Source of the DNA: Saccoglossus kowalevskii
Lineage: Eukaryota; Hemichordata; Enteropneusta; Harrimaniidae
NCBI RefSeq assembly: GCF_000003605.2
Contig: NW_003148792.1
Span: 42,827 to 63,319, forward strand
Direction: 5' to 3'
DNA length: 20,493 nucleotides
Each line of letters opens with the position of its first letter. Position 1 is the first letter of the stretch. A model generated the notes under the pieces. That model was not told the DNA's origin, did not search any database, and worked only from the letters and a program-made list of their open reading frames with translations. Shown piece after piece: positions 2,636 to 20,493 of the stretch. Position numbers and translations under genes: made by a program.

Positions 2636-4160
2636 ATACACCAAGAACAAAATAAAATGTTAGCATTTTGGTGATTACCAGCCAATATGCTAAATGATCA
2701 ATGCGTCGGATTGGATCAACCATAGTATACTGCCATTAATTATATTTCGACATATGTTCTACTATATCAGCTTAAGTCTTGTTAAGTTTACGAAATGTTC
2801 GGACAATATCCATATATATGGTTATCGCATGGAATCGTTATCGTTGTGACCAGAATGCATGAATATTCTTATCTTAGAAAACCTTGATATTACCTATTAG
2901 GAAAAATTATTACACGTGGACTGCCATGATATATGAGACAGACATGGTTAATGTACGTGCTGAACTATTCTGCTGCCTAATTGTTACCATTACAACTATC
3001 GATACATCTTACAAACAGTTATCTATTTCAGCTATCAATATGACACAACCTTAATATATCAATCACCGTATTTGCTTTTACATAACCTTATTTGTAAAAG
3101 TACAGGATAAACCATCTACATTGTTGTTATATGCCTTTACGATGTACAATCGATGTACATCGTCATAATCTTTCACTTTTATACTTCATGTGCCCGAACC
3201 AACGTAATAGTTTAGTGGTTACTAAACAATATATGTGTGACCCTAACTATACCTAGACATTTGAGTTTAACAATTTACTTTCCTGCAAACTTTGGTATGC
3301 CTTAGGATGATCTTGGGCTTCACAATTTACTGACTAGGCATAGAACTTAGGCCTGTGTTACCTGCGTCTACCTAGACGTTGATTGGTTTACCAAAGCCTG
3401 TATTTGAAGTACAGAGTAGGTATGCAGTGCTCGTCTGCATTTGCGGAAGACCCTGTGTACTGTTCTTTCGTGAGTTCATCTTTTTTTTTCAAGTCTGTCG
3501 AATGAATCTCAGTCATTGAAATATCTCCCCATGATGTTATCAAATGCAATATAGCCCAAAACTGAGAACGCAACTTTGCATTTACTCGCACGTATTATCA
3601 ATCTTGCTTCTTTCAATTTACTATTGTAATCTTAGATAACATTTAATAGCGATGTTATTGTCGTTGTATGCATTTCAAAATCTTGACATTTTGGAATCAT
3701 CAAACCCATGAGTAACGAAAGCATGTGCATCAGGATTTTCATATTTCTAATAACTTACACAAATCTGTCATCGAATGTGTCGGAAAGTTTGTGCTTTGGC
3801 CAATTAATATCTCCTTTGGTGTTCTGAACAAGTTAACTATGATTACCAGTTCCTCTGCTATACATTAATTTCAGGTATAGCCTTAGGGGGTCGTATACTC
3901 GTATGTGGTTAATTGATGAAGTAAAGAGCCAATAATGTCTATACACCACCACCAATGTTCTTCTAACACATACAGCAGGAGTTTAGCTTTTAAACCAAAA
4001 GTTTTATTTGCAACCTTTCGGCATGTTTCACATGTGCGACAATATTTGGCCACATCTGTAAAGATTCAAGGCCAATAGTAGTGTTGAAGTAGTCTTCTAT
4101 TAGTTTTCTCCAAATGTTATCTCATGCGCTAAGCATAGAAAAGTCTGTTGGCAGTTTTTA
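2636..4160. other. AT-rich stretch without a recognised gene
   Basis: No protein-like frame or splice-bordered exon was found that I could support. It contains a 10-bp-stem hairpin (3139-3163), a shorter hairpin near 3367-3380 (CGTCTA, CC, TAGACG), and at about 3990-4050 a segment that looks like the end of a dispersed repeat (see findings). Confidence 0.5.
3139..3163. repeat. Perfect hairpin, 10-bp stem and 5-base loop
   Basis: ACGATGTACA and its exact reverse complement TGTACATCGT are separated by ATCGA. The arms also contain the direct repeat CGATGTACA. It could form a cruciform or a transcript hairpin; its role is unknown. Confidence 0.7.
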
Positions 4161-5010: not shown

Positions 5011-6660
5011 TGTTTTTAATTTAAACAATATTTTTATTTCGTTTCAATAATATAAACATACAACACAAAATATTACATTACAAAGAGGTAGAAGGAAGAA
5101 AATTAAAATTAAGAGAAAGAAAATAAGAAAAACAAATTTTTGATCTGGTATAACATCTAAATTTGCCCATTATCTAGCCAATTAGCTAATTGTCCCCATT
5201 TATGATAATGGATGAGTTCTTTATTTTTGTTTATTGCGATTTGTAGTTCAATATTTCTATACTCCTTGATCCAAATTTTATATGCGTATTTTGTTGGATG
5301 AACCTTTTGAACCCTGCAGGTATATACATATTTTTTTAAATAATAAAATAAAATGATTTAATAATATATTTTCCGGTTCACATAGACCTATAATAATATT
5401 GTTGACATTACAAACAATATTAGCAATAAGTGTACAATCACTTTGCAACAGTTTCAACAGTTTCTTTACAACAATACAGTTAACAAATAGGTTACTTAAT
5501 GTTACTTCTTCTTTTTCACAAAAAGAACAGTGGGGGAATTGATTATTTTTCATTTATACATTAGTTGTTAGAAGTCTGTGTATAATTTTGTATTGGAATT
5601 GAAATTGTTGTCTTGAAAGGTAATTTGAATTGTTGTTTCAACCCATACAAATGTTGGAAGTCTATGGCAATATTTGGCTCTTCAACAATCTTTTCAGACA
5701 AAGATTTATACACCTTTTTGCTTGTTAGTGTATTAATTGCAACTTACTTAGAATTCCATTGATTTTGTTTTGAAAATCACACTACTCATGGGTATTATAG
5801 TATGGTATTCTGTCAAAGTGATACCTTTTACCTTCCAATATTGCCAGTCATGAAAGTTTCCATAGAAATCGATTAGGTCTATTATTCTTAATACTTATTT
5901 TCTTGCCAAATTGTTCAGATAGACTGTACGAAAGCCAATTTTTAAAAATATAATGTTCCATAATATTTGTTATCAATTTCAGATGTTGTTTTTGGAGTGT
6001 ATGATGTCAGAGATGGCCATTCCCGGATAATACCATAATAAAAGGGTGCAATTTGATTTTCAAATTCTGATTCATCATAGTTGCAAAAAAACACAAAAAA
6101 ACATGGTCCCCAAACGTTTTCAATAGTCCCTTTCAATATATTCTTCCATCCGGCTTGGCTATCTGAAACAAATCGTTTCACCCACATAATATGTTGTGCT
6201 TTAAAAAAAGAGTCCGCCTCAATCATATTTAATCCACCCCTTTCAATATCTGGAATAAGGATTTTTCTTTTAATTTTATCCTTTCCATTCCAAATAAAAT
6301 TGTAAATAATATTATTGTCTTTTTTGATAATTGATTTTGGCACTGAAATCATTAATGCTAAATATATAAATTGAGAAAGGCCAAAGGTTTTAAGAATCTG
6401 TATTTTACCAATTATTGACAGTTTTCATTTAGACCATAATGAGCATACTGACTTTAGACTGTTAATTTTCTTTGAAAAATTTTCTTCAATAGACATGTCA
6501 GATGCATAGGTAAAACAACTCCCAAAATTGTTATTCCATTCGACCATTTAATATTTATTTTCCCCTTTGTGCAATGTTTCAACAGTTCTGGTTCTATGCT
6601 AATTCAAATGAGCATCAATAATGATTTATTATTTATTATTGAAGTGAGTTGAATATTGCT
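5011..6660 (-). mobile_element. 5'-truncated L1-like non-LTR retrotransposon (LINE)
   Basis: Read on the minus strand, this is the 3' part of a LINE. It begins at about 6660 in the region after the reverse-transcriptase core. It runs through a C-terminal zinc-knuckle-like segment, a stop codon at 5157-5159, a roughly 145-base AT-rich 3' UTR and an A-rich end near 5011-5030 that includes GAAATAAAAAT. The reverse-transcriptase catalytic core and the endonuclease are absent, as expected for 5' truncation during target-primed reverse transcription. Stops and frameshifts break the frame, so the copy is dead. The motif style (WNGK, ERGGL, WVKR) matches L1/Tx1-like elements of marine invertebrates and fish. 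Clade assignment is from memory of these motifs, not a search. Convincing target-site duplications were not found. Confidence 0.85.
5157..6640 (-). pseudogene. LINE ORF2 C-terminal region, broken
   Basis: This is the decayed C-terminal part of an L1-like ORF2 protein, the polyprotein that copies the element. From the N-terminal side, the readable pieces are as follows. ELLKHCTKGKINIKWSNG lies near 6590-6535. After a frameshift near 6515-6520 comes SIEENFSKKINSL. An in-frame TGA at about 6431 interrupts LWSK*KLSIIGKIQILKTFG. An intact block (6352-5942) carries NFIWNGKDKIKRK, ERGGLNM and MWVKRF, hallmarks of this family. Several frame changes follow between 5940 and 5555, including a recognisable YKIIHRLLTTNV. 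Then comes a Cys-rich piece (5553-5278) with CSFCEKEE and a later NCIVV cysteine, like the C-terminal zinc-binding segment. The end is clean (HKWGQLANWLDNGQI, then TAG). The plus-strand ORF at 6081-6305 is its antisense shadow. Confidence 0.85.
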
Positions 6661-7243
6661 GTGGGAAATTGTTTATAGTAAAATTATAATAGTGTCCTTT
6701 GTCATATAGTCTGGTAGAAAGCTGGTCAAAATCAAAGTACACCTCAAGTATGGAGCAAAATAAGCCGATTCTGTAGTAACTAATTATTTGATCCGGCTTC
6801 TAACATTCTGTAATGGTTTTCGAACAAATGTTAGCTTTATGAGCAGGTTTATGATCAGTAATACATGTAAGAATGTAAATTAGTTTGACTTGAAATCTAT
6901 CCATTTGACTTATTATTCGTTCGCTTGTTTGTTATCAGAGTTTTGGATTCCAGATGACAATCTGTCATTTCGACTAAGTCATCAATATCCTTCCTTGTTT
7001 TATGCTTGCATAATGACAAGTCTATTCAACAGGTGAGGGACCTTCACATCATTCCTGTAGTTCATTTTGTTTTGCGTTATATAATATTTGTAGTTAATTC
7101 ACTTCAGCCATTACAAGAACACATGTACTGTATTTACATTCATTACATGATATCCTTCATATGCCAACCTCTACTGAACTTAATTTGGCTTGTGATGACA
7201 GAAATATAAATAATTCATATTGTTTCTTTTAACAAATACAAAC
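6661..7243. other. AT-rich stretch, nothing recognised
   Basis: A 67-codon plus-strand ORF (7006-7209) is present but has no recognisable motif. Its composition follows the local AT-rich DNA, so I treat it as chance. No exon borders, RNA genes or repeats can be supported. Confidence 0.55.
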
Positions 7244-7662: not shown

Positions 7663-8025
7663 AACAAATGTATACTAAATGTAAACCAATGTATACTAAA
7701 TGTTAACCAATGTATACTAAATGTAATTCAATGTATACTAAAAGTTACCAATGTATACTAAATGCTTGCCAATGTATACTAAATGTTAACCAATGTATAC
7801 TAAATGTTAACAATGTATATTAAATGTTAACCAATGTATACTAAATGTTAACAATGTATACTAAATGTTAACCAATGTATACTAAAGGTTACCATTGTAT
7901 GCTAAATGTTAACAATTTATACTAAATGTTAACAAATGTATACTAAATGTTAACAATGTATACTAAATATGAACCAATGTATACTAAATGTAAACCGATG
8001 TATACTAAATGTTACCCAAATAATA
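7663..8025. repeat. Minisatellite, 20/21-bp unit, about 17 copies
   Basis: The unit is AATGTATACTAAATGTTAAC with an optional extra C. About 17 copies plus a decayed terminal copy can be counted by the GTATACTAA core. Units with and without the extra C alternate between about 7780 and 7890, giving a 41-bp dimer in the centre of the array. Each unit holds two palindromic words, GTATAC and GTTAAC. Divergent copies (GTATGCTAA, TTTATACTAA) lie near 7898-7920. The short ORF at 7570-7761 runs into this array and is not a gene. Confidence 0.95.
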
Positions 8026-9204: not shown

Positions 9205-9950
9205 GATCTAACCATAGTGTCGTAATATAATCATAGTGACGTAATTGAACCATAGTGTCGTAATTGAATCATAGTGTCGTAATAGAACCATAGTGTCGTA
9301 ATAGAACTATAGTGTCGTAATGTAACCACAGTGTCGTAATTGAACCATAGTGTCGTAATAGAATCATAGTGTCGTAATAGAACCATAGTGTCGTAATAGA
9401 ACTATAGTGTCGTAATGTAACCATAGTGCCGTAATAGAACCATAGTGTCGTAATAGAACTAGTGTTGTAATGTAACCACAGTGTCGTAATTGAACCATAG
9501 TGTCGTAATAGAATCATAGTGTCGTAATAGAACCATAGTGTCGTAATAAAACTATAGTGTCGTAATGTAACCACAGTGTCGTAATTGAACCATAGTGTCG
9601 TAATAGAATCATAGTGTCGTAATGTAACCATAGTGTCGTAGTGTCGTATTGGAACCATTGTGTCGTAATAGAACCACATTGTCGTAATAGAACTATAGTG
9701 TCGTAATATAATCATAGTGTCGTGATAGAACCATAGTGTCGTAACATAACCATAGTGTCGTAATAGAATCATAGTGTCGTAATAGAACCATAGTGTCGTA
9801 ATAGAACCATAGTGTCGTAATGTAACATTAGTGTCGTAATAGAACCATAGTGTCGTAACATAACCATAGTGTCGTAATAGAATCATAGTGTCGTAATAGA
9901 ACCATAGTGTCGTAATAGAACCATAGTGTCGTAATAGAATCATAGTATCT
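9205..9950. repeat. 19-bp satellite array, about 39 copies
   Basis: The consensus unit is AATAGAACCATAGTGTCGT. Copies run head to tail with strict 19-bp spacing, except one 17-base copy near 9457 and one 8-base partial copy near 9640. Variant units recur in a fixed order: AACTATAG, then GTAACCACAG, TTGAACC, AGAATC, AGAACC. This order appears near 9300-9400, 9455-9545 and 9545-9620, a 95-bp higher-order repeat. The right half has a different order (ACATAACC, AGAATC, AGAACC, AGAACC) repeating at about 114 bp. The 224-codon minus-strand ORF here is a by-product: 19 is not a multiple of 3 and the minus consensus lacks stops in all three frames. Confidence 0.97.
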
Positions 9951-10794: not shown

Positions 10795-11923
10795 GTAAGC
10801 GTTATTTGAAGAGATTACCTAGAATATAGACCAGTTTTTGAAAAAGAGAAAAGTGTCCTATTAGTCAGGATGTATATTGTTTTCACCATGTACAGTATAC
10901 CAGGAATACAATTTGAGATACGGCATAATAGCTTCGCCAATAATCAATGTCAAAAGCAGTACAGATAAACTGACCGCAATCTTCTGGAAAATAGGCCCCC
11001 AGCATATTACGTTTATATCTTTATATTGATTGGAAGTACACCTGATGCTAAATTCTGGATGTTTCAAGCAGGATGTCATAGTCGTGGAGTGGTAACTATG
11101 TAACTATGTAACTATGCAACTGCCTCAAAATAAAAAAAGTGTGAATGCTTGCAAAATTTTCCACAACCTTTCAAGTTAGTTGTAGGTCCTGATCGTTCTC
11201 AATAAAATGACAATTTGACTTATATGGGTGTATATATTTGCATCACTATAGGTGAAACGTCGAATACTATGACGTGTTTGTGTATGCATGATTAAAGTGC
11301 ACTCGTTCTTAAATTGACGGGAACCAGGGCGTTCAGTAAAATATCTGAATGATGCATGACAGGAGTGGTCAGTGTCTGACTTTCTGCACGTCGACAGGAT
11401 GGATGGTACTGACGAACCACTTTTCGTGGTTCCGTGGTTGTATTGTATCATTTACATGCCACAATGATCACATTGTGATAACATATAGAATATTAAAAAA
11501 AAACTCAGATTAGAAATATATATATAAAAATATTAAGAACATTGATTTACGCGATCGACTGAATAGATTTTGACTATGTAATCACTCTGAAAATAGAAAC
11601 CGGTAGGCATGCTAAACCAAAGACATCGATAGACGACAGAACAATGAAAAAAAAAAGATGATGAGATGCACTTTTTTTCTATCTTGCCCAGTATACAATG
11701 AAAAATAAAACACTATCCTCAACGCAAAAGAACATAAACTTTAAAAACACATGTTAAACCAGCAATTTGAATATTTAATGTCTACGACATAATGATAATC
11801 CCACTAGCAATTTATATAAGCCACTGCATGGAACTAAGTCAGCAACACACTCACCCTCGGTAGTTCATTGTCACAGAAGAGAGTATTTCTGTATTTTAGT
11901 GATTTTGTCGTTAACTGTTGTTA
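10795..11923. other. AT-rich stretch without a supported gene
   Basis: The minus-strand ORF at 10861-11079 contains one hydrophobic segment, and the one at 11176-11451 is somewhat GC-richer. Neither has a recognisable motif or good splice borders. A small 8-bp repeat (TAACTATG, about three and a half copies) lies at 11092-11119. Poly-A runs occur near 11493 and 11646. Confidence 0.5.
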
Positions 11924-11931
11924 TTGATTTG

Positions 11932-12087
11932 CAGTGGTGGATCCAGCAAAATGTATTGGGGGGGGGGGGGGGTCCAAGCTTCGCTTAAGATATACGGAGC
12001 GTAAATCACAGAGAAGCTATGCGTAATCCAGATCATATGAATCGTCATGCGTTTGGGAGGCATGGCCCCCCGCTGGATCCGCCACTG
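11932..12087. mobile_element. hAT-type MITE with 8-bp target-site duplication
   Basis: The ends are CAGTGGTGGATCCAGC on the left and GCTGGATCCGCCACTG on the right, a 16-bp terminal inverted repeat with one mismatch. Flanking 8-mers TTGATTTG (11924-11931) and GTGATTTG (12088-12095) match at 7 of 8 bases, the duplication length typical of hAT transposases. CAGTGGCGGATCCAG-type ends are common in animal hAT elements. The 156-bp element has no transposase and holds a 15-base G run (11958-11972) near the left end, so it is a non-autonomous MITE. The minus-strand ORF that spans it is not a gene. Confidence 0.88.
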
Positions 12088-12109
12088 GTGATTTGTAACA
12101 TTCAATTAT

Positions 12110-12845: not shown

Positions 12846-13690
12846 GGAACAGTATGCTATTCATTGGAAAAGGAAACAACAGTTCGGAAACTAGGCTTAT
12901 TCTATCTTGAAAACACATACGCCATTTGGAATCTCACGTAAATACCACAATTCGTGTCAATAATCCGTGTTATTATGTTACGTACATACCACGTTTACAT
13001 GTAAATATACATTGGATCATCAACCCCGACATATGACGCTGAATGCTGGCAACGTAGGTGTGTTATGAGACACAGAGATGCCCTTAGAAAACACATTATA
13101 GCATATTGTGATTGACAAAGGTTACTTTGTACTGGGAATTCTCATTAGGTCACATTTTAACAACATTTACTGTTCTACTGTTTGACTAAGATATATCACC
13201 ATATCATCAATTCGAACCTCTGCGGCTAGAGAATGGAAATAAATGTGTTAACAATGAATTAACATGACAGATATACGAGATAATCCCATGCAAATTTGAG
13301 CACACGTAATATGGGCGTTTTCTTAATTTTCTTTAAGACATAGGAAAATGAACCATTACTGACATAATGATATGAATGTGTTCGCTGGCACGTTTCTTAG
13401 CAAAGGTTACAATAACGAGCAGAACGTCATTAAATATAAATATATTTTCTCTCTATAATTAAACCATATGTAAAATAATAGTTTCAACACGTCCTGTGTG
13501 AATGAATTTGGCTATTACCGAATTCCTATATATTTATGCCAAAAGAGAATGAATACGGGCGTGTTTTCAACTTGCGAGTATGCATTATCCGTCGATAAAC
13601 CAGTGGGCAAGACTCAGGAGACGACCGACATAGAAACAGCACGTTTTCCATAAATTAACATAATATCAAATTAACTCACTCTATAAGTCG
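12846..13690. other. AT-rich stretch, nothing recognised
   Basis: No ORF, exon border pair, repeat array or RNA gene can be supported. It lies immediately upstream of the peptide-gene promoter and may hold distal regulatory sequence, but no clear motif cluster is seen. Confidence 0.55.
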
Positions 13691-13697
13691 TTCCTTG

Positions 13698-13818
13698 CTT
13701 CGACGTCATCACGGCAAAGACATCGCATTTGATCTCCGGCTTTTAACTTACTATCCCAGGTCGAGTGGGACGAAGTCACGGTATATAAACAAGCCGGATT
13801 GTATGAGAAAAGTCAGTC
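13698..13818 (+). promoter_or_regulatory. Core promoter: CRE-like site, TATA box, initiator
   Basis: TATAAA at 13784-13789 (within GTATATAAAC) lies 31 bases before the A of TCAGTC (13813-13818). TCAGTC matches the invertebrate initiator TCAKTY, and this is the standard TATA-to-start spacing. A CRE-like CGACGTCATCA lies at about 13701-13711, roughly 110 bases upstream of the inferred start. The local G+C content is raised. CRE plus TATA promoters are usual for neuropeptide and other regulated secretory genes. The motifs are seen directly; promoter activity is inferred. Confidence 0.55.
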
Positions 13819-13871
13819 GTTTCATCAATCCAAGACGAAGAGTAGTTATTGAGAGTTCTGCCGACATAAAG
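13815..13871 (+). other. Candidate leader exon (5' UTR)
   Basis: From the initiator A at 13815 to the donor AAAG|GTAAAC at 13872, this 57-base exon contains no AUG. It is followed by a 142-base intron with a branch-like CAACTAAAC (about 13972-13980) and a long pyrimidine tract ending in TTTCCACAG at 14013. Joined to the first 32 bases of the next exon, it gives an 89-base AUG-free leader. Confidence 0.5.
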
Positions 13872-14045
13872 GTAAACTGCGTAGACTGTATTAACAACCA
13901 TGTATGCGTTTACGATGCGCCATTCGATTAATGTTAATGCATCAACAGTTTCGCATTTCTTGCTTTTTTTCCAACTAAACTTCATGTATGTTTTTTTCCT
14001 TCCCTTTCCACAGTGTTTCACCTGTTGCCTTACACTCACGTCATC

Positions 14046-14159
14046 ATGAAACTGTGTTACGTAATATTCATACATTTTGGTTTGATGTGTGCCTGTACGC
14101 AAATTAAGGCATTTCCCAACTTTGCCAGTTTATTTATGAACACGGGTAAAGAAACATCG
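14046..14159 (+). CDS. First coding exon of a putative secreted peptide gene
   Basis: The exon starts at 14014, after one of the best polypyrimidine-AG acceptors seen in the window. Its first ATG at 14046 (A at -3) is also the first AUG of the inferred spliced transcript. It encodes 38 residues: a basic-then-hydrophobic leader (MKLCYVIFIHFGLMCACTQ) like a signal peptide, followed by IKAFPNFASLF and a hydrophilic end. It stops at the consensus donor TCG|GTGAGT (14160) in phase 0. Cleavage is plausible around residues 17-22. The product would enter the secretory pathway, and the small size and CRE/TATA promoter suggest a peptide hormone or other small secreted protein. I do not recognise the family. 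A second, earlier donor (CGG|GTAAAG at 14146) would end in phase 1. Opposite-strand and flanking-frame ORFs here are shadows. Confidence 0.45.
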
Positions 14160-14225
14160 GTGAGTCAATATTCTTTGCTTTGCACACGCACGAATATGTA
14201 TTTTTCCATCGTATTTTTGCGATTG

Positions 14226-14245
14226 TTTTTTTTTTTTTTTTTTTT
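14226..14245 (+). repeat. Poly-T run, 20 bases
   Basis: Twenty consecutive T residues lie inside the proposed second intron. This could be the A tail of a minus-strand retrocopy, but no recognisable body follows. It could also be simple slippage. Confidence 0.9.
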
Positions 14246-14463
14246 ACAAAATACCAAATTGCATCAATCGACGCAAAACAGTGGCTGTAAGCAATACTGC
14301 GTCAATCATAAATACAGAAACTGTCACATTCTTCACCCTCATTAATACAGTGGATCCAGTTACAGTCGTGCGGTTTTTCCAGTGACCAATTGCTTGCAAA
14401 TGACCCCTGTAGTCTACACTGCAACCAGTTTATTTAATCAGTGATGCCGGACGAATTCTCGTG

Positions 14464-14473
14464 TATAAAATAG
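14464..14473 (+). promoter_or_regulatory. Possible TATA box (TATAAAATAG)
   Basis: This TATA consensus match lies inside the proposed second intron. A TTCAAGT initiator-like word lies 33 bases downstream. It could be an internal promoter or chance; no exon after it is clear. Confidence 0.18.
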
Positions 14474-14657
14474 CTGCCAACAATGTGCACTCGTTCAAGT
14501 GCTATGCCTAGTCTTTATATACACATACTTGTAACCATAGGTCGTTTGTGCAATTCTTTGAAATAGAAGAGACCTTGCGTTCGGTCATTTGTGACAGTAC
14601 ACGTCGTTTTATTTTGGGTTTATGTTGCTTGAGTTCTCCTGATGTTGATTTCACCCG

Positions 14658-14791
14658 TTTAAAGGCGGTGGTCGTCGCTCAGCGCGTGTTCGAATTTCAT
14701 GTAAATAAATAATGTATTTTACACGCATTGTGTACGTCGCTATGAGTCGCATAACGAACAGGACGCGGAACGACGACTGCCGCCCTTTAAA
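14658..14791. mobile_element. 134-bp foldback MITE ending in TTTAAAGG
   Basis: The left end (TTTAAAGGCGGTGGTCGTCG...) and the reverse complement of the right end (TTTAAAGGGCGGCAGTCGTCG...) match over about 36 bases with a few gaps and substitutions. The match continues through a CGCGT word to GTTCG. The interior is about 60 bases with no coding capacity. TTTAAA at both outer edges is palindromic, so target duplication and terminal repeat cannot be separated. A TTAA-type (piggyBac-like) or TA-type target is possible. It lies in the proposed second intron. Confidence 0.75.
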
Positions 14792-14912
14792 TTTACACTT
14801 TTCTAAAAGACACGTACGTGTTAAGTGTCGTGTTCCAGTGTTTCAATTAAAAAACGGTATGGCAGCGAATATGCAGTCTCTCATTACGTGCACGTGTTTG
14901 TTATAGTTGTAG

Positions 14913-15016
14913 CCATACTGCGCTATCTCGAAGAACGGATAATGAGTGTAAAGAGGCAGCTAGACTTTAGTCGTGATTTGGGGGAACATTTACAGTTCAA
15001 TATTCAAAACGCGTGA
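14913..15016 (+). CDS. Alternative terminal exon candidate with a Lys-Arg site
   Basis: An open frame encodes ILRYLEERIMSVKR, then QLDFSRDLGEHLQFNIQNA and TGA. A GTAG acceptor at 14912 is only fair, because another AG lies six bases before it. Used with the earlier donor at 14146, the phase fits (G plus CC makes an Ala codon). It would give a 67-residue precursor with a signal peptide, one dibasic site and a 19-residue C-terminal peptide starting with Gln. That is a typical neuropeptide layout. It competes with the exon at 16358, and neither is proven. Confidence 0.2.
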
Positions 15017-15346
15017 TTAGTGTGCCGAAATATTGATCAACCATCTGACAGAGGGGCATTCATAACATATAAATGAAAGGTGTGGATTCGCACGAAAAGT
15101 TACATTGACATTACATTGATTTCCAGGTTTGAGAAAGGGTCTGACAATGTTCAGAATTCATATGATCAAGTACATGATATGATAACATTCCCAAGCGTGG
15201 TCAACTCGGATAATGTGTGCTGTTGTGACAAAAAAGTTCCCGAAAAGTAGTATGAGAAATGTTGGGTATTAAAGAAAATGGGTTGAAATGGTATGCTAAT
15301 CCCTGAGGAAACTCCCCAATATTGCTGGTAACCTTGATACCCCCTT

Positions 15347-15369
15347 TCCCGGGGCAACCATCCCCGGGA
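15347..15369. repeat. GC-rich hairpin, 8-bp stem
   Basis: TCCCGGGG and CCCCGGGA flank the 7-base loop CAACCAT. It is a stable GC-only core in AT-rich intronic DNA, with CCCCC and CTCCCC runs just upstream. Its role is unknown. Confidence 0.75.
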
Positions 15370-16340
15370 TGTAACTTGCGTGCTTCAGCTGAACAGCTAT
15401 TACATCGAAAGACGTTGTGCGCCACAAATGGTGCTCGCCTCGACCAACGCCACTACTGAGTATTTCATGTAGCTATATATACTGATATAACGTGTTTCGT
15501 AGACTAAATGTTAACGTTCTTTCAGAAAAAATACACAACGTTTTTTTCAACTTTCAGCAATTGAATAAATGACGCGAGGAAATCCGTTTCCCACGGATCT
15601 GTGTTCTGTTTATCTAAAGTTGTTTTTGTATTATGTAAGCCTATTTTGTAATGGTTGTGGTAATCCTTACACAAAACAATACACCTTTCAGAAGTTAAGT
15701 AGTCCACATGTATAATCTAAGTATGTAAATATGTAATACCTTAAATAAGTGGATTAGTATGGAAAACCTTTTAAAAATGTTTGAACATGAAATTTTTGAA
15801 GTATATGTTAGAACAATCTTAGCATTCAAATGTAAACCAGGGGATTACTGCTTGTATATATAGCTACGAGGGGAAACAGTAATTCAGAAAAACACCAGAT
15901 CCACGCGTTGTTATTCATGCTGGAAAAGTTTAACAAACTTTTAAAGGTTCAGTGAACGTATTTGACAACAAATCAGCGAAATATCTCGAGTGTTTCACCG
16001 GGTCGATGGGTTAAGGGGTGTAGTTGTGTACGGAAATGTAAACTGTAATGTTGAGTGACTCACATGGAATAAACTAACGTATGAATTACAGATCCCATTG
16101 TATAGCGATAACTTTCTTCAACGTAGTACTTTTCAGATTTGAACGACATTCACTATGGGTAGACGAAATCACACGTTGACCATTTCAATGTTTCTTGTAG
16201 AATTTCTGCCTAATTTACATTGTTGTATCTTGGTATAACGAGTAGTCATATGTGTGTCAACTTGATGATAGGTTTGTAATCAGTCGCCATTGTTAAGATT
16301 TGCCAATCAAACAAAAATCAATATAACGAGTTTTTAACAC
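15370..16340. other. Proposed intron sequence, nothing further recognised
   Basis: This is AT-rich DNA between candidate exons. No splice-bordered open segment, RNA gene or transposon end could be supported. It includes a T/A-rich run near 15540. Confidence 0.5.
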
Positions 16341-16357
16341 ATTTATCTTGATTGCAG

Positions 16358-16436
16358 GGGAGTGGCCAGGATGAGGAAGTTTTACCACCACATGCATTCA
16401 CAGAAGAAGAGGCATTGCGAGCCCTACATCTTGCAC
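16358..16436 (+). CDS. Coding exon candidate, acidic segment, family unknown
   Basis: This 79-base segment has consensus borders: ATTTATCTTGATTGCAG before it and GCAC|GTAAGTG after it. Its G+C content is about half, falling sharply outside. In phase 0, matching the donor at 14160, it reads GSGQDEEVLPPHAFTEEEAL then RALHLA plus one base of the next codon. The segment is acidic and then helix-forming. A second frame (beginning GVARMRKFYHH) is also open but basic and less protein-like; the third has a stop. If the donor is ignored, the main frame reads on to a TGA at 16532 and adds three cysteines, giving a possible terminal-exon isoform. No family is recognised. Confidence 0.5.
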
Positions 16437-17130
16437 GTAAGTGTGTTTACTGGGATATGCATAATCACATTACATATACAAATACTTGCACTATTTTTGT
16501 ACAGAAAGCATGTGATAATCAAACAACATTGTGATAGTGTATATTATATGGTATATTACACAGGGTTGAGTGAGTACATTTTTTGTATTTAGTATTATAT
16601 TTGATTCATTTCTTAGCCCAATATTAACGGCCGATCAATTTTAAACGAATGCCATGATAAGAAAATTAGTCGACACTACCATATTTAATCAATTGGGGTC
16701 ACAGATAACAGAATAATGTTTTAGTGTGTGGTGTATATTCAGTTCAAGACACTTGCATGTTATCGGCAAAGTAGCTATTTCCATGCTCTATCATATTTTA
16801 CGACATTGAAGTTAAAGCCATGTTTATGATCGATGCGGAGCCGTTAAAGTCCACCACCAATCGATCACCTAGATTAAAGAAGGGTGTTAATGACAAAACA
16901 TTATCGAGAACTCGCTTTCATTAACATTTTTAGAATACTCGTTCCTGGAAAAGTGTGCATATTAGTTAAATTAGTGTTCAACCACTTGGTTTATAAGCTC
17001 TCTGCCACGACAGACCATAACTATATTTAATTGGATGTACTAACTCCCTTCGAATAGTCCGACATGATGAAATATTGAATTCAAACTCCTAATTGGTGTT
17101 CTTAATGGGATAATGGTTGATATATTACAG

Positions 17131-17189
17131 TATACAAGTCGTGGAGGTATTTGCGGAAGCGAATTGTGCAATTACGAGTAGGAATATGA
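17131..17189 (+). CDS. Possible terminal exon with a Lys-Arg pair
   Basis: After TTGATATATTACAG an open segment begins whose first two bases complete the codon left by the exon at 16358, making CTA (Leu). It continues YKSWRYLRKRIVQLRVGI and ends with TGA. It is GC-richer than its flanks and strongly basic. With the two upstream exons the whole product would be 83 residues: signal peptide, acidic spacer, basic amphipathic tail with one dibasic site. The acceptor has a poor pyrimidine tract, and no AATAAA follows within several hundred bases. Other acceptors downstream are also possible, so this exon is tentative. Confidence 0.2.
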
Positions 17190-17734: not shown

Positions 17735-20390
17735 TTTCAGTTAAATATAATAACTTTAAGACATATTAAATACGCTGATAAGAAGAATTAGATTATATAT
17801 ATCTACCATTGTATGAGAAGCGTTGCTACACGACCCAATTCTATCTTGGATTTTAGCTTTATTCGTAATATTCCATGTAATTAAAGCATAAAACAAATAC
17901 CGACTCAAAGAGTGCCGATTGTGTACATTTGTGTACAATAATGCAAGTTATTATTTAGGGATCTACAGAATGTCTTAATTTAAGAGATCGACCTGTAAAT
18001 TACCTGAGTAACTCATACGTTGTTTATTTTCCACATATGCGAGTAATTGCAACGCTGAAATTATTAATATTTAATTATTTTTATATTACTGATCAGTATA
18101 AATAACTGAAGTTAGACTAGAAAATAAAGAGGGGGAGCAATCTCAAGCATGGCTCTTAGAAGATATAATCTCAGTAGTTGAACAATTTTGACAGTTGCAT
18201 ACAATATTATTAAAATATTCCAAATTATTGCATGGTTTCCCGTTGAACCCACCCTTCAGTAGATATAATCTATTTAGAAATTATAATTATATATGTTTGT
18301 AATGTGACTGTAATTCCCAAATGTATTAGTTCACACTGATGTAAATTTCTGAATATCCTAAATCTATATATCCACTTTCTCCCACTGTGTGTCTGTTTCG
18401 TTTTTCGCTATTGAAAATCAATATTTGAAGCCATAAAACCGCTGTTCAAAAATCATTACTCGTATACAATTGCAAATACTTATGATCACATGATCGCAGC
18501 AAACACCGACACTAAAATACAACTGCTCACAGCTGAGCAAGTCTAATAAATTCTAACCAGACACTTCTGAGAAGAAGTGAATTAACTTATCAAATTACTT
18601 AGCGCGGTAGTTGCCATTGACAACACACACAACGCCACGGGATTCCATCAAACTAGCTTGAGCAACGGTAAATCCATTAATGTATTATATATCAATACTC
18701 TTAATTCAAAGAAGGTTCTATCACATTGCCTATTAGTGCAATGACGCACATGATGACCCGGGCCTAATCACTGTATGTGAAATTGATCTAGTGTAGAACT
18801 AATCGTTATAATTTATCACTGGGCACTTGTAAAAATTACAAATCAAGTTCTACTCTTGAATAGTTACAAGACTATAATTTCAGAAGTTTGACATCCATCC
18901 TACCCAATACCTCTGTAATTCATAGCACCTTTCGGCGCAGAGCTCTACATACCAGGCTATGTGATCTAAGTTATTTCACAAAAGCGATTATATTGTGTGA
19001 CGACAATTCGAAGGGGATTTAAGAACGAACGTCATCAACGTTTAATTTAAGGGTTATATGTATACACTTAAAACTAGCTTTAAAAACCTATTTGCTTTGA
19101 AATTACAACGTTTTTTCTAGTTGTGAAATGTTATATCAGTACTTCTATTTAGTTCTTCTGCTGTTATCGGCACCATTGCACTGTCAACCCACAACTCACA
19201 TGTTGTACCCGTATTATAGGTAGTACCTACGTTATGATGTACAAGTGTACTATGACGTAACATTTACATGGTTTGATTTTGGCTCTTATTGATTGCTTAT
19301 TTTCATTCAAGAGTTGCCAATGGACCGATTCCCAAATAGGTTTCCGTACATGAAATATCTTTGATGACAGGTTAAGTAGTCGATCGAATAGGTCATATGG
19401 ATACCCAATCTCCTCTTCATTATATTCCATGCCGCTTGAGATTTCCGTATCCTGTTGGCAGATGTTAAAGGAGTGCGAGTGGCAACTGTAAAATCATTTA
19501 CAACTTTAATATTCTTTGACTTTATACAAAAGCGATCTTTCTAATGATTTCGAATCTCGAGACACGTTTTATGATACTTCCTACTTACCCCTGGGGTGTT
19601 TTTAAGATCACATGTGCACTTAAATTGCATGACGTGCTTCCCAAGGATTTAAAAGTCATTATTTTTATGCGAGAATCACGAATAGGACTATAGTGATGGT
19701 GCCCAAGAGAAATATAGCCGGAGATTAGTATTTAGAATATAGACAGTGGACATAGGACATTATATATAACAATTAATCGGGACATGCGATCATATGTATT
19801 ACTCATATCACTAAAGTGTTTTTAGATATTTGAAATAGCTAAAATATTAACAACAACATCATTATATTACGTATATTAATGACCCAGATCAATGTTCACG
19901 CGCGTATTTTGGTTACGTTTTGTTATTTTTCAATCGATTACGGAAATTTCATCCTATTTCTTGAGAAAAGGTTTTTGCCAAAATTGTAAATTGTAGAAAT
20001 CGGTCTAGAGCGAAATATTTGTTTTAGGAATGAGCCTTTAAACTACAGTACACGGGGATACATCTATCCCTCATGGGATTTCGAGACCAAATAACCCGTA
20101 TTGTGTTCTTTGATGTTCCGCTTTATCTAATAGTGTACAAACACCCACTGACATTCGCTTTTACTTACGTGTGGCGGGAATCTATTCAATACAACCAGGT
20201 AGAGAACAACACAGATAATAGGTTGAAGGAATTCCCCCCTGGAGGTATTTCAATTATCTACGACCACTACCGAGTGCAGGATTCGATATACAATAGAAAG
20301 TTTTTTCTTTTTATAATTTACCTTGAATCATAATTCAGCTCAATTTCACTGCAAGTGTCATCCCATTTTCACCAATAGTTGTTACACAAT
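17735..20390. other. AT-rich stretch without a supported gene
   Basis: Several 60-90 codon ORFs occur (17756-17938 minus, 19227-19430 minus, 20073-20333 plus). None has a recognisable motif, and their composition follows the local DNA. A TATAAATAAC near 18093 is followed by ATGG at about 18150, which opens only a 10-codon frame. TGACGT words occur near 19254 and 19630. No tRNA, transposon end or repeat array is seen before 20393. Confidence 0.5.
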
Positions 20391-20392
20391 TG

Positions 20393-20493
20393 CTTGGTTA
20401 GTGCTAGGGGCGCCAACTCTACTATTAGTTTCATCATTACTGGTTAGTGTTATGAGCACCAACTCTATTAGTTTCATCATTACTTGGTTAGTG
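20393..20493. repeat. Tandem repeat of 43-47 bp, cut by the window edge
   Basis: CTTGGTTAGTG begins at 20393 and, with small changes, again at 20440 and 20483. Each unit continues GC(G/A)CCAACTCT, ATTAGTTTCATCATTA. The second copy lacks four bases (CTA plus one) relative to the first. The third copy starts eleven bases before the end, so the array continues outside the window. Confidence 0.95.

Follow-up and report, generated by a model that had tools for sequence, protein, structure and literature searches.

A probable four-exon gene encoding a small secreted peptide with a predicted cationic helical tail in the hemichordate Saccoglossus kowalevskii

Gene model and the signals that define it

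What does the segment 13698-17189 encode, within a stretch of 20,493 nucleotides from Saccoglossus kowalevskii (contig NW_003148792.1 of assembly GCF_000003605.2, positions 42,827 to 63,319 of the forward strand; the whole stretch is called the window from here on)? Our analysis indicates that a short animal gene of four exons, encoding a small secreted peptide that carries a cationic helical tail, is very probably present in the window. The anatomy of this locus and its excess over chance are the established part of the result. The elements of the model are the following.

13701-13708, plus strand: CRE-like (cyclic AMP response element) site CGACGTCA, with 7 of the 8 letters of the consensus TGACGTCA
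13784-13789, plus strand: TATA box TATAAA, read from the sequence
13813-13818, plus strand: initiator TCAGTC, whose A at 13815 is 31 bases from the first T of TATAAA
13815-13871, plus strand: exon 1, an AUG-free leader of 57 nt, with donor AAAG/GTAAAC
14014-14159, plus strand: exon 2, with the remaining leader, the signal peptide and then 16 residues; first AUG at 14046; donor ATCG/GTGAGT, phase 0
16358-16436, plus strand: exon 3, 26 residues, acidic (-5), GSGQDEEVLPPHAFTEEEALRALHLA; open in phase 0; donor CAC/GTAAGT, phase 1
17131-17189, plus strand: candidate exon 4, 19 residues, cationic (+6), LYKSWRYLRKRIVQLRVGI; stop codon TGA at 17187-17189
18123-18128, plus strand: possible polyadenylation signal, the first AATAAA 3' of the stop codon

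An earlier note on this DNA had described the TATA box and initiator with their spacing, the AUG-free leader, the donors and acceptors and the exon open in phase 0, and on re-reading the sequence all of them were located where it had placed them. The CRE-like site is also present, though it lacks one consensus letter and the window contains 21 copies of TGACGT in either orientation, of which 3 lie in 13315-14060. Transcription would start at 13815, to judge from the initiator. The acceptor of exon 2, TTTCCACAG, ends at 14013 and is preceded by a sequence that by eye resembles an ACTAAAC branch site, and translation from the AUG at 14046 up to the phase-0 donor gives MKLCYVIFIHFGLMCACTQIKAFPNFASLFMNTGKETS. 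The G+C content of exon 3 is 0.519, versus 0.346 in the window. The spliced reading frame adds 114, 79 and 59 coding nt, giving 83 residues and the stop codon. Downstream of it, ATTAAA is additionally present at 17765 and 17880.

Splice sites were scored with general consensus tables, without training on this genome. Among the 1347 GT dinucleotides, the donors at 14160, 16437 and 13872 were in the top 0.22, 0.82 and 1.93%, respectively, and the acceptors of exon 2 (14014) and exon 3 (16358) ranked in the top 0.2% and the top 0.39% of 1017 AG. The link over the 2.2-kb intron had been given in the earlier note as inferred, and it proved better than was thought there: both the acceptor and the donor of exon 3 are among the best of the window, and that acceptor is by far the best of the three listed choices that continue exon 2 in phase 0.

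These signals were evaluated jointly by means of a chain score, defined as the maximum over both strands for an acceptor, a first AUG that opens a hydrophobic start, a donor and another exon that stays open in the required phase, and leaving the promoter out. Exons 2 and 3 form the top chain of the window with a score of 36.65, the best chain of the other strand reaching 26.9 and those of the reversed sequence 30.1 and 28.3. No random window reached 36.65 among the 360 that were generated, in sets of 120, with Markov order 1, 2 or 4. Splice, frame and promoter signals jointly speak for a genuine 5' gene structure belonging to a small secreted protein. We have little doubt that exons 1-3 are real, and it is likely that their product is a small secreted peptide.

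Candidate exon 4, the precursor and its possible function

The continuation of exon 3 was studied with a join test over the 131 downstream AG sites after which 8 or more codons stay open in the phase required. Joining to 17131 gave the highest 18-residue helical moment of these candidates (0.614, with a runner-up at 0.606), a value reached by only 1 of 368 upstream control AG joins. The moment peaks at 100 degrees, as expected for an alpha helix, and the end of exon 3 would form one face of this amphipathic helix. Given exon 4, the precursor contains an acidic segment followed by a cationic amphipathic helix, the charge being split between both exons. As a separate observation, the GT at 17178 is donor-like (score 4.45) and would permit another exon.

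According to simple rules, the precursor starts with a signal peptide having Lys2, a hydrophobic 8-residue mean of 2.38 and a cleavage-like sequence QIKA/F (A22/F23). No dibasic site was found between the signal peptide and residue 73 of the 83-residue model; given exon 4, the only ones are the overlapping RK/KR that lie within the helix at residues 73-75. In addition, no C-terminal amidation signal (Gly plus a basic residue) is present in the 83 residues, in which GK is found only at 34-35 and whose chain ends in RVGI. To our knowledge, most neuropeptides need dibasic sites or an amidation signal. The absence of a dibasic site before residue 73 and of a Gly-basic end therefore speaks against the usual neuropeptide maturation. 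Thus, from the proposal of the earlier note, the small secreted peptide is sustained by the signals of splicing, frame and promoter taken jointly, and its neuropeptide nature is not, given these absences and the lack of a hormone match.

Acidic pro-regions of spider linear cationic peptides are cut, according to the portion of PMC9788040 consulted, after a processing quadruplet with Arg at -1 and Glu at -2, -3 and/or -4. The sequence EALR at residues 56-59 fits this rule, which is a loose one, the spider motifs listed in that portion being EEAR, EEER, ELER and GEER. These spider precursors are also alike in the order of signal peptide, acidic segment and cationic amphipathic helix, with an XXXR motif having Glu at -4 before the helix. 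The Saccoglossus model differs from them, as far as that portion describes them: its motif contains a single Glu, its helix is not followed by an inverted motif, it lacks a C-terminal Gly for amidation, and it shows no sequence relation to them.

The explanation that we tentatively consider the best is a four-exon gene whose 83-residue precursor carries a cationic membrane-active peptide of host-defence type behind an acidic pro-region. The splicing, the use of exon 4, the cleavage and the activity of this product are steps that we infer. The TATA/initiator promoter would drive the leader exon, and exon 2 would start translation and supply the signal peptide, with cleavage most likely after Ala22. 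Exon 3 would then encode the acidic segment and exon 4 a cationic one prolonging the same amphipathic helix. The acidic part would most likely shield or steer the cationic helix until secretion, and a cleavage, perhaps after Arg59 (EALR), would free a helix of 24 residues and net charge +6, which could act on membranes as a peptide of host-defence type. This type is our first choice because of EALR, the 24-residue product with its charge of +6 and the lack of the usual signs of neuropeptide maturation. A membrane-active function may be suggested with some reserve. The function is a guess, and the class of the peptide lies between the host-defence type, which is favoured, and a helical hormone, which is a close rival.

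Relatives and rival explanations

Searches for relatives agree with the earlier note, whose author could not place the peptide in any family: Pfam, NCBIfam, PDB and 16 known peptides gave no significant match. In detail, the precursor had no match in Pfam or NCBIfam and none with E < 1 in PDB. No Pfam hormone family was reported at E up to 10, a search in which the filters of HMMER drop most weak matches. With the tail only, PDB returned a mitochondrial ribosomal protein and an archaeal-type ribosomal protein (E 1.2 and 1.8), which were taken as chance matches. No relative was found in viral contigs or phage records. Twelve short stretches of the peptide were absent from the literature text searched, which says little on novelty, and no peptide like the precursor appears in the portions consulted of PMC8557429, PMC11521371, PMC8398477 and PMC12002301.

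The 16 known peptides, mostly hormones, were aligned against 2000 shuffles each and none gave p < 0.05. The lowest value was that of the Aplysia egg-laying hormone (0.053), followed by PTH (0.16), glucagon (0.18), LL-37 (0.19), galanin (0.20) and TIP39 (0.23); the remaining ten had p of at least 0.40, including PTHrP (0.41), CRF (0.83) and NPY (0.90). Membership in the PTH, TIP39, NPY, CRF, egg-laying hormone and other families was rejected by these shuffled alignments, and as none of the 16 was under 0.05, no family membership can be claimed.

Several observations weigh against the gene model and the function that we favour. Regarding the signals, the TATA-initiator pair is not notable by itself because 0.34 strict pairs are expected by chance per window over both strands; it is the only strict pair present, and for a given 300-base segment of a single strand the probability of containing one is about 0.0025 (by arithmetic from 0.34). 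A signal-peptide exon in its strict definition is exceptional, being expected 0.005 times per window (it occurred in 1 of 200 random windows), but with thresholds that were fixed only after the site was seen, and in its relaxed definition it is expected 1.85 times. The relaxed test fails to support exon 2 alone and, therefore, the joint chain score was relied on, the null maxima of which (36.0, 36.6 and 35.9 for Markov order 1, 2 and 4) include one very close to 36.65. Moreover, an unrelated exon-like stretch at 6939-7032, open in one frame, has the top summed splice score of the plus strand (20.15, donor 12.85), above exon 2 (19.3) and exon 3 (17.35). Regarding exon 4, its acceptor is weak (top 17.1% of the 1017 AG), the helix test was picked after the peptide was seen, and shuffled letters reached the maximum moment with p 0.038 for the whole mature part and 0.078 for the tail, a modest excess. 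Regarding the product, the RKR at residues 73-75 of the tail could be cut by convertases, the quadruplet rule asks for just one Glu within the three positions before Arg and is derived from spiders, the vicinity of the promoter yielded no NF-kB-like site, and the Pfam, NCBIfam and PDB searches were empty. We consider that exon 4 is probably assigned correctly, and we go no further because the helix test is post hoc with a close runner-up, the excess over shuffles is modest and the acceptor is weak. A chance line-up or a decayed gene would fit the expected numbers of TATA-initiator pairs and of relaxed signal-peptide exons, as well as the proximity of the nearest random chain. However, it is very unlikely in view of a chain unmatched in the 360 random windows, a promoter that lies outside the chain score and is nevertheless correctly placed and ordered upstream, and exons 2 and 3 without any frame break or damaged splice site. 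An unlikely alternative, on better terms with the weak acceptor at 17131, is that a longer protein, either secreted or of the membrane, begins with exons 1-3, the 17131 exon being unused and the frame continuing elsewhere, perhaps past the window. Other phase-compatible acceptors are available for it, for instance 20134 (66 open codons, score 5.1) and 19462 (7.64), but none of them continues the helix of exon 3 as well as 17131 does. Furthermore, a scan of 80 open stretches with a minimum length of 52 codons, which short exons escape, detected no Pfam domain at E up to 0.01 apart from a weak match of 17 residues on the minus strand (3886-4065).

A helical peptide hormone or neuropeptide is only slightly less likely than the tentatively favoured host-defence type. 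By analogy with PTH, CRF and egg-laying hormone, the secreted 61-residue chain, or the helix from about Phe52, would bind a class B-type G protein-coupled receptor. A long amphipathic helix does follow Pro48-Pro49, and YLRKRI resembles by eye a stretch of PTH, with TIP39 and egg-laying hormone also somewhat alike. The short precursor and the TATA promoter also speak for it. The intron before the start codon and the phase-0 intron after the signal-peptide exon, these introns being deduced here from splice signals, are as in the echinoderm F-type SALMFamide genes, according to the portion consulted of PMC9793003; in contrast to those genes as described there, the present model has neither repeats of amidated SALMFamide-like peptides nor dibasic sites separating them. 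Within the portions consulted of PMC4354418 and PMC7224569, the PTH family with its member TIP39, and likewise iPTH, an insect ligand of the PTH receptor (iPTH/PXXXamide, PMC7224569), share with the model a small precursor, a leader exon, a signal-peptide exon and a helical C-terminal part, and tunicates and amphioxus have been proposed to possess PTH-like peptides (PMC4354418). The genes of PTH and TIP39 are given there with three exons, versus four in our model, which shows no significant similarity to the N-terminal 34 residues of the PTH family, and iPTH has KR before and the amidation signal GRR behind its mature peptide (PMC7224569), neither of which is found in the model. The hormone reading also faces the lack of a dibasic site before the helix and of an amidation signal, and the absence of hormone matches both in the filtered Pfam search and among the 16 known peptides.

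Other elements of the window and implications of the gene

The 2.2-kb intron contains an inverted repeat at 14658-14790, with 27-nt arms that are 78% complementary and 79 nt apart; it sits in the most G+C-rich part of this intron and is possibly a small inserted element. Upstream of the gene, the arrangement TATATAA ... AAGTCAGCA at 11813-11841, on the same strand and with 28 bases from T to A, resembles by eye the promoter at 13782-13815. A paralogous promoter was nevertheless rejected, since 51 of 300 random stretches align equally well. No tandem copies of the gene were detected in the window besides the three exons themselves, the next match having an E value of 0.18. At 11919-12100, inverted arms of 29 nt (76%) frame CAGTGGTGGATCCAGC ... 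GCTGGATCCGCCACTG at 11932-12087, with the flanks TTGATTTG and GTGATTTG being alike in 7 of 8 positions; it has the appearance of a short non-autonomous element of hAT type.

On the minus strand, 5278-6424 holds two open stretches of 160 and 91 amino acids, which resemble the C-terminal end of an L1/Tx1-type LINE (long interspersed nuclear element), a likeness that Pfam, NCBIfam and PDB did not support. No relative of this frame was found in viral contigs or in bacterial and archaeal genomes. The exon-like stretch 19350-19451, also on the minus strand, has the acceptor CTGCCAACAG/GATACGG (6.91) and a donor (6.13), reads DTEISSGMEYNEEEIGYPYDLFDRLLNLSSKIFH and looks coding. It gave no match in Pfam or NCBIfam and only matches with E 1.3 or worse in PDB, and it possibly belongs to another gene. 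Minisatellites are located at 7663-8019 (21-base unit), 9210-9946 (19-base unit, open for 227 codons on the minus strand) and 20389-20493 (43-base unit). The window contains neither tRNA genes nor any Rfam family at the gathering threshold, and bacterial-type promoters and terminators, irrelevant here, were not above those of shuffled sequences. Its G+C content, its observed/expected CpG ratio of 0.95 and the LINE-like remnant fit with many invertebrates.

By itself, the gene has no bearing on an open question until its expression and its relatives are known. A more speculative proposal, which we regard as quite unlikely, is that it represents an undescribed family of secreted peptides in which a phase-1 intron splits an amphipathic helix into an acidic and a cationic half located on separate exons. 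If that were true, a single precursor could receive different active tails from alternative last exons. The gene, if true, would add to the small secreted peptide genes that gene finders miss, because its exons are short and its product does not match annotated families. Promoter, splice and frame signals, taken jointly, can find such genes without homology.

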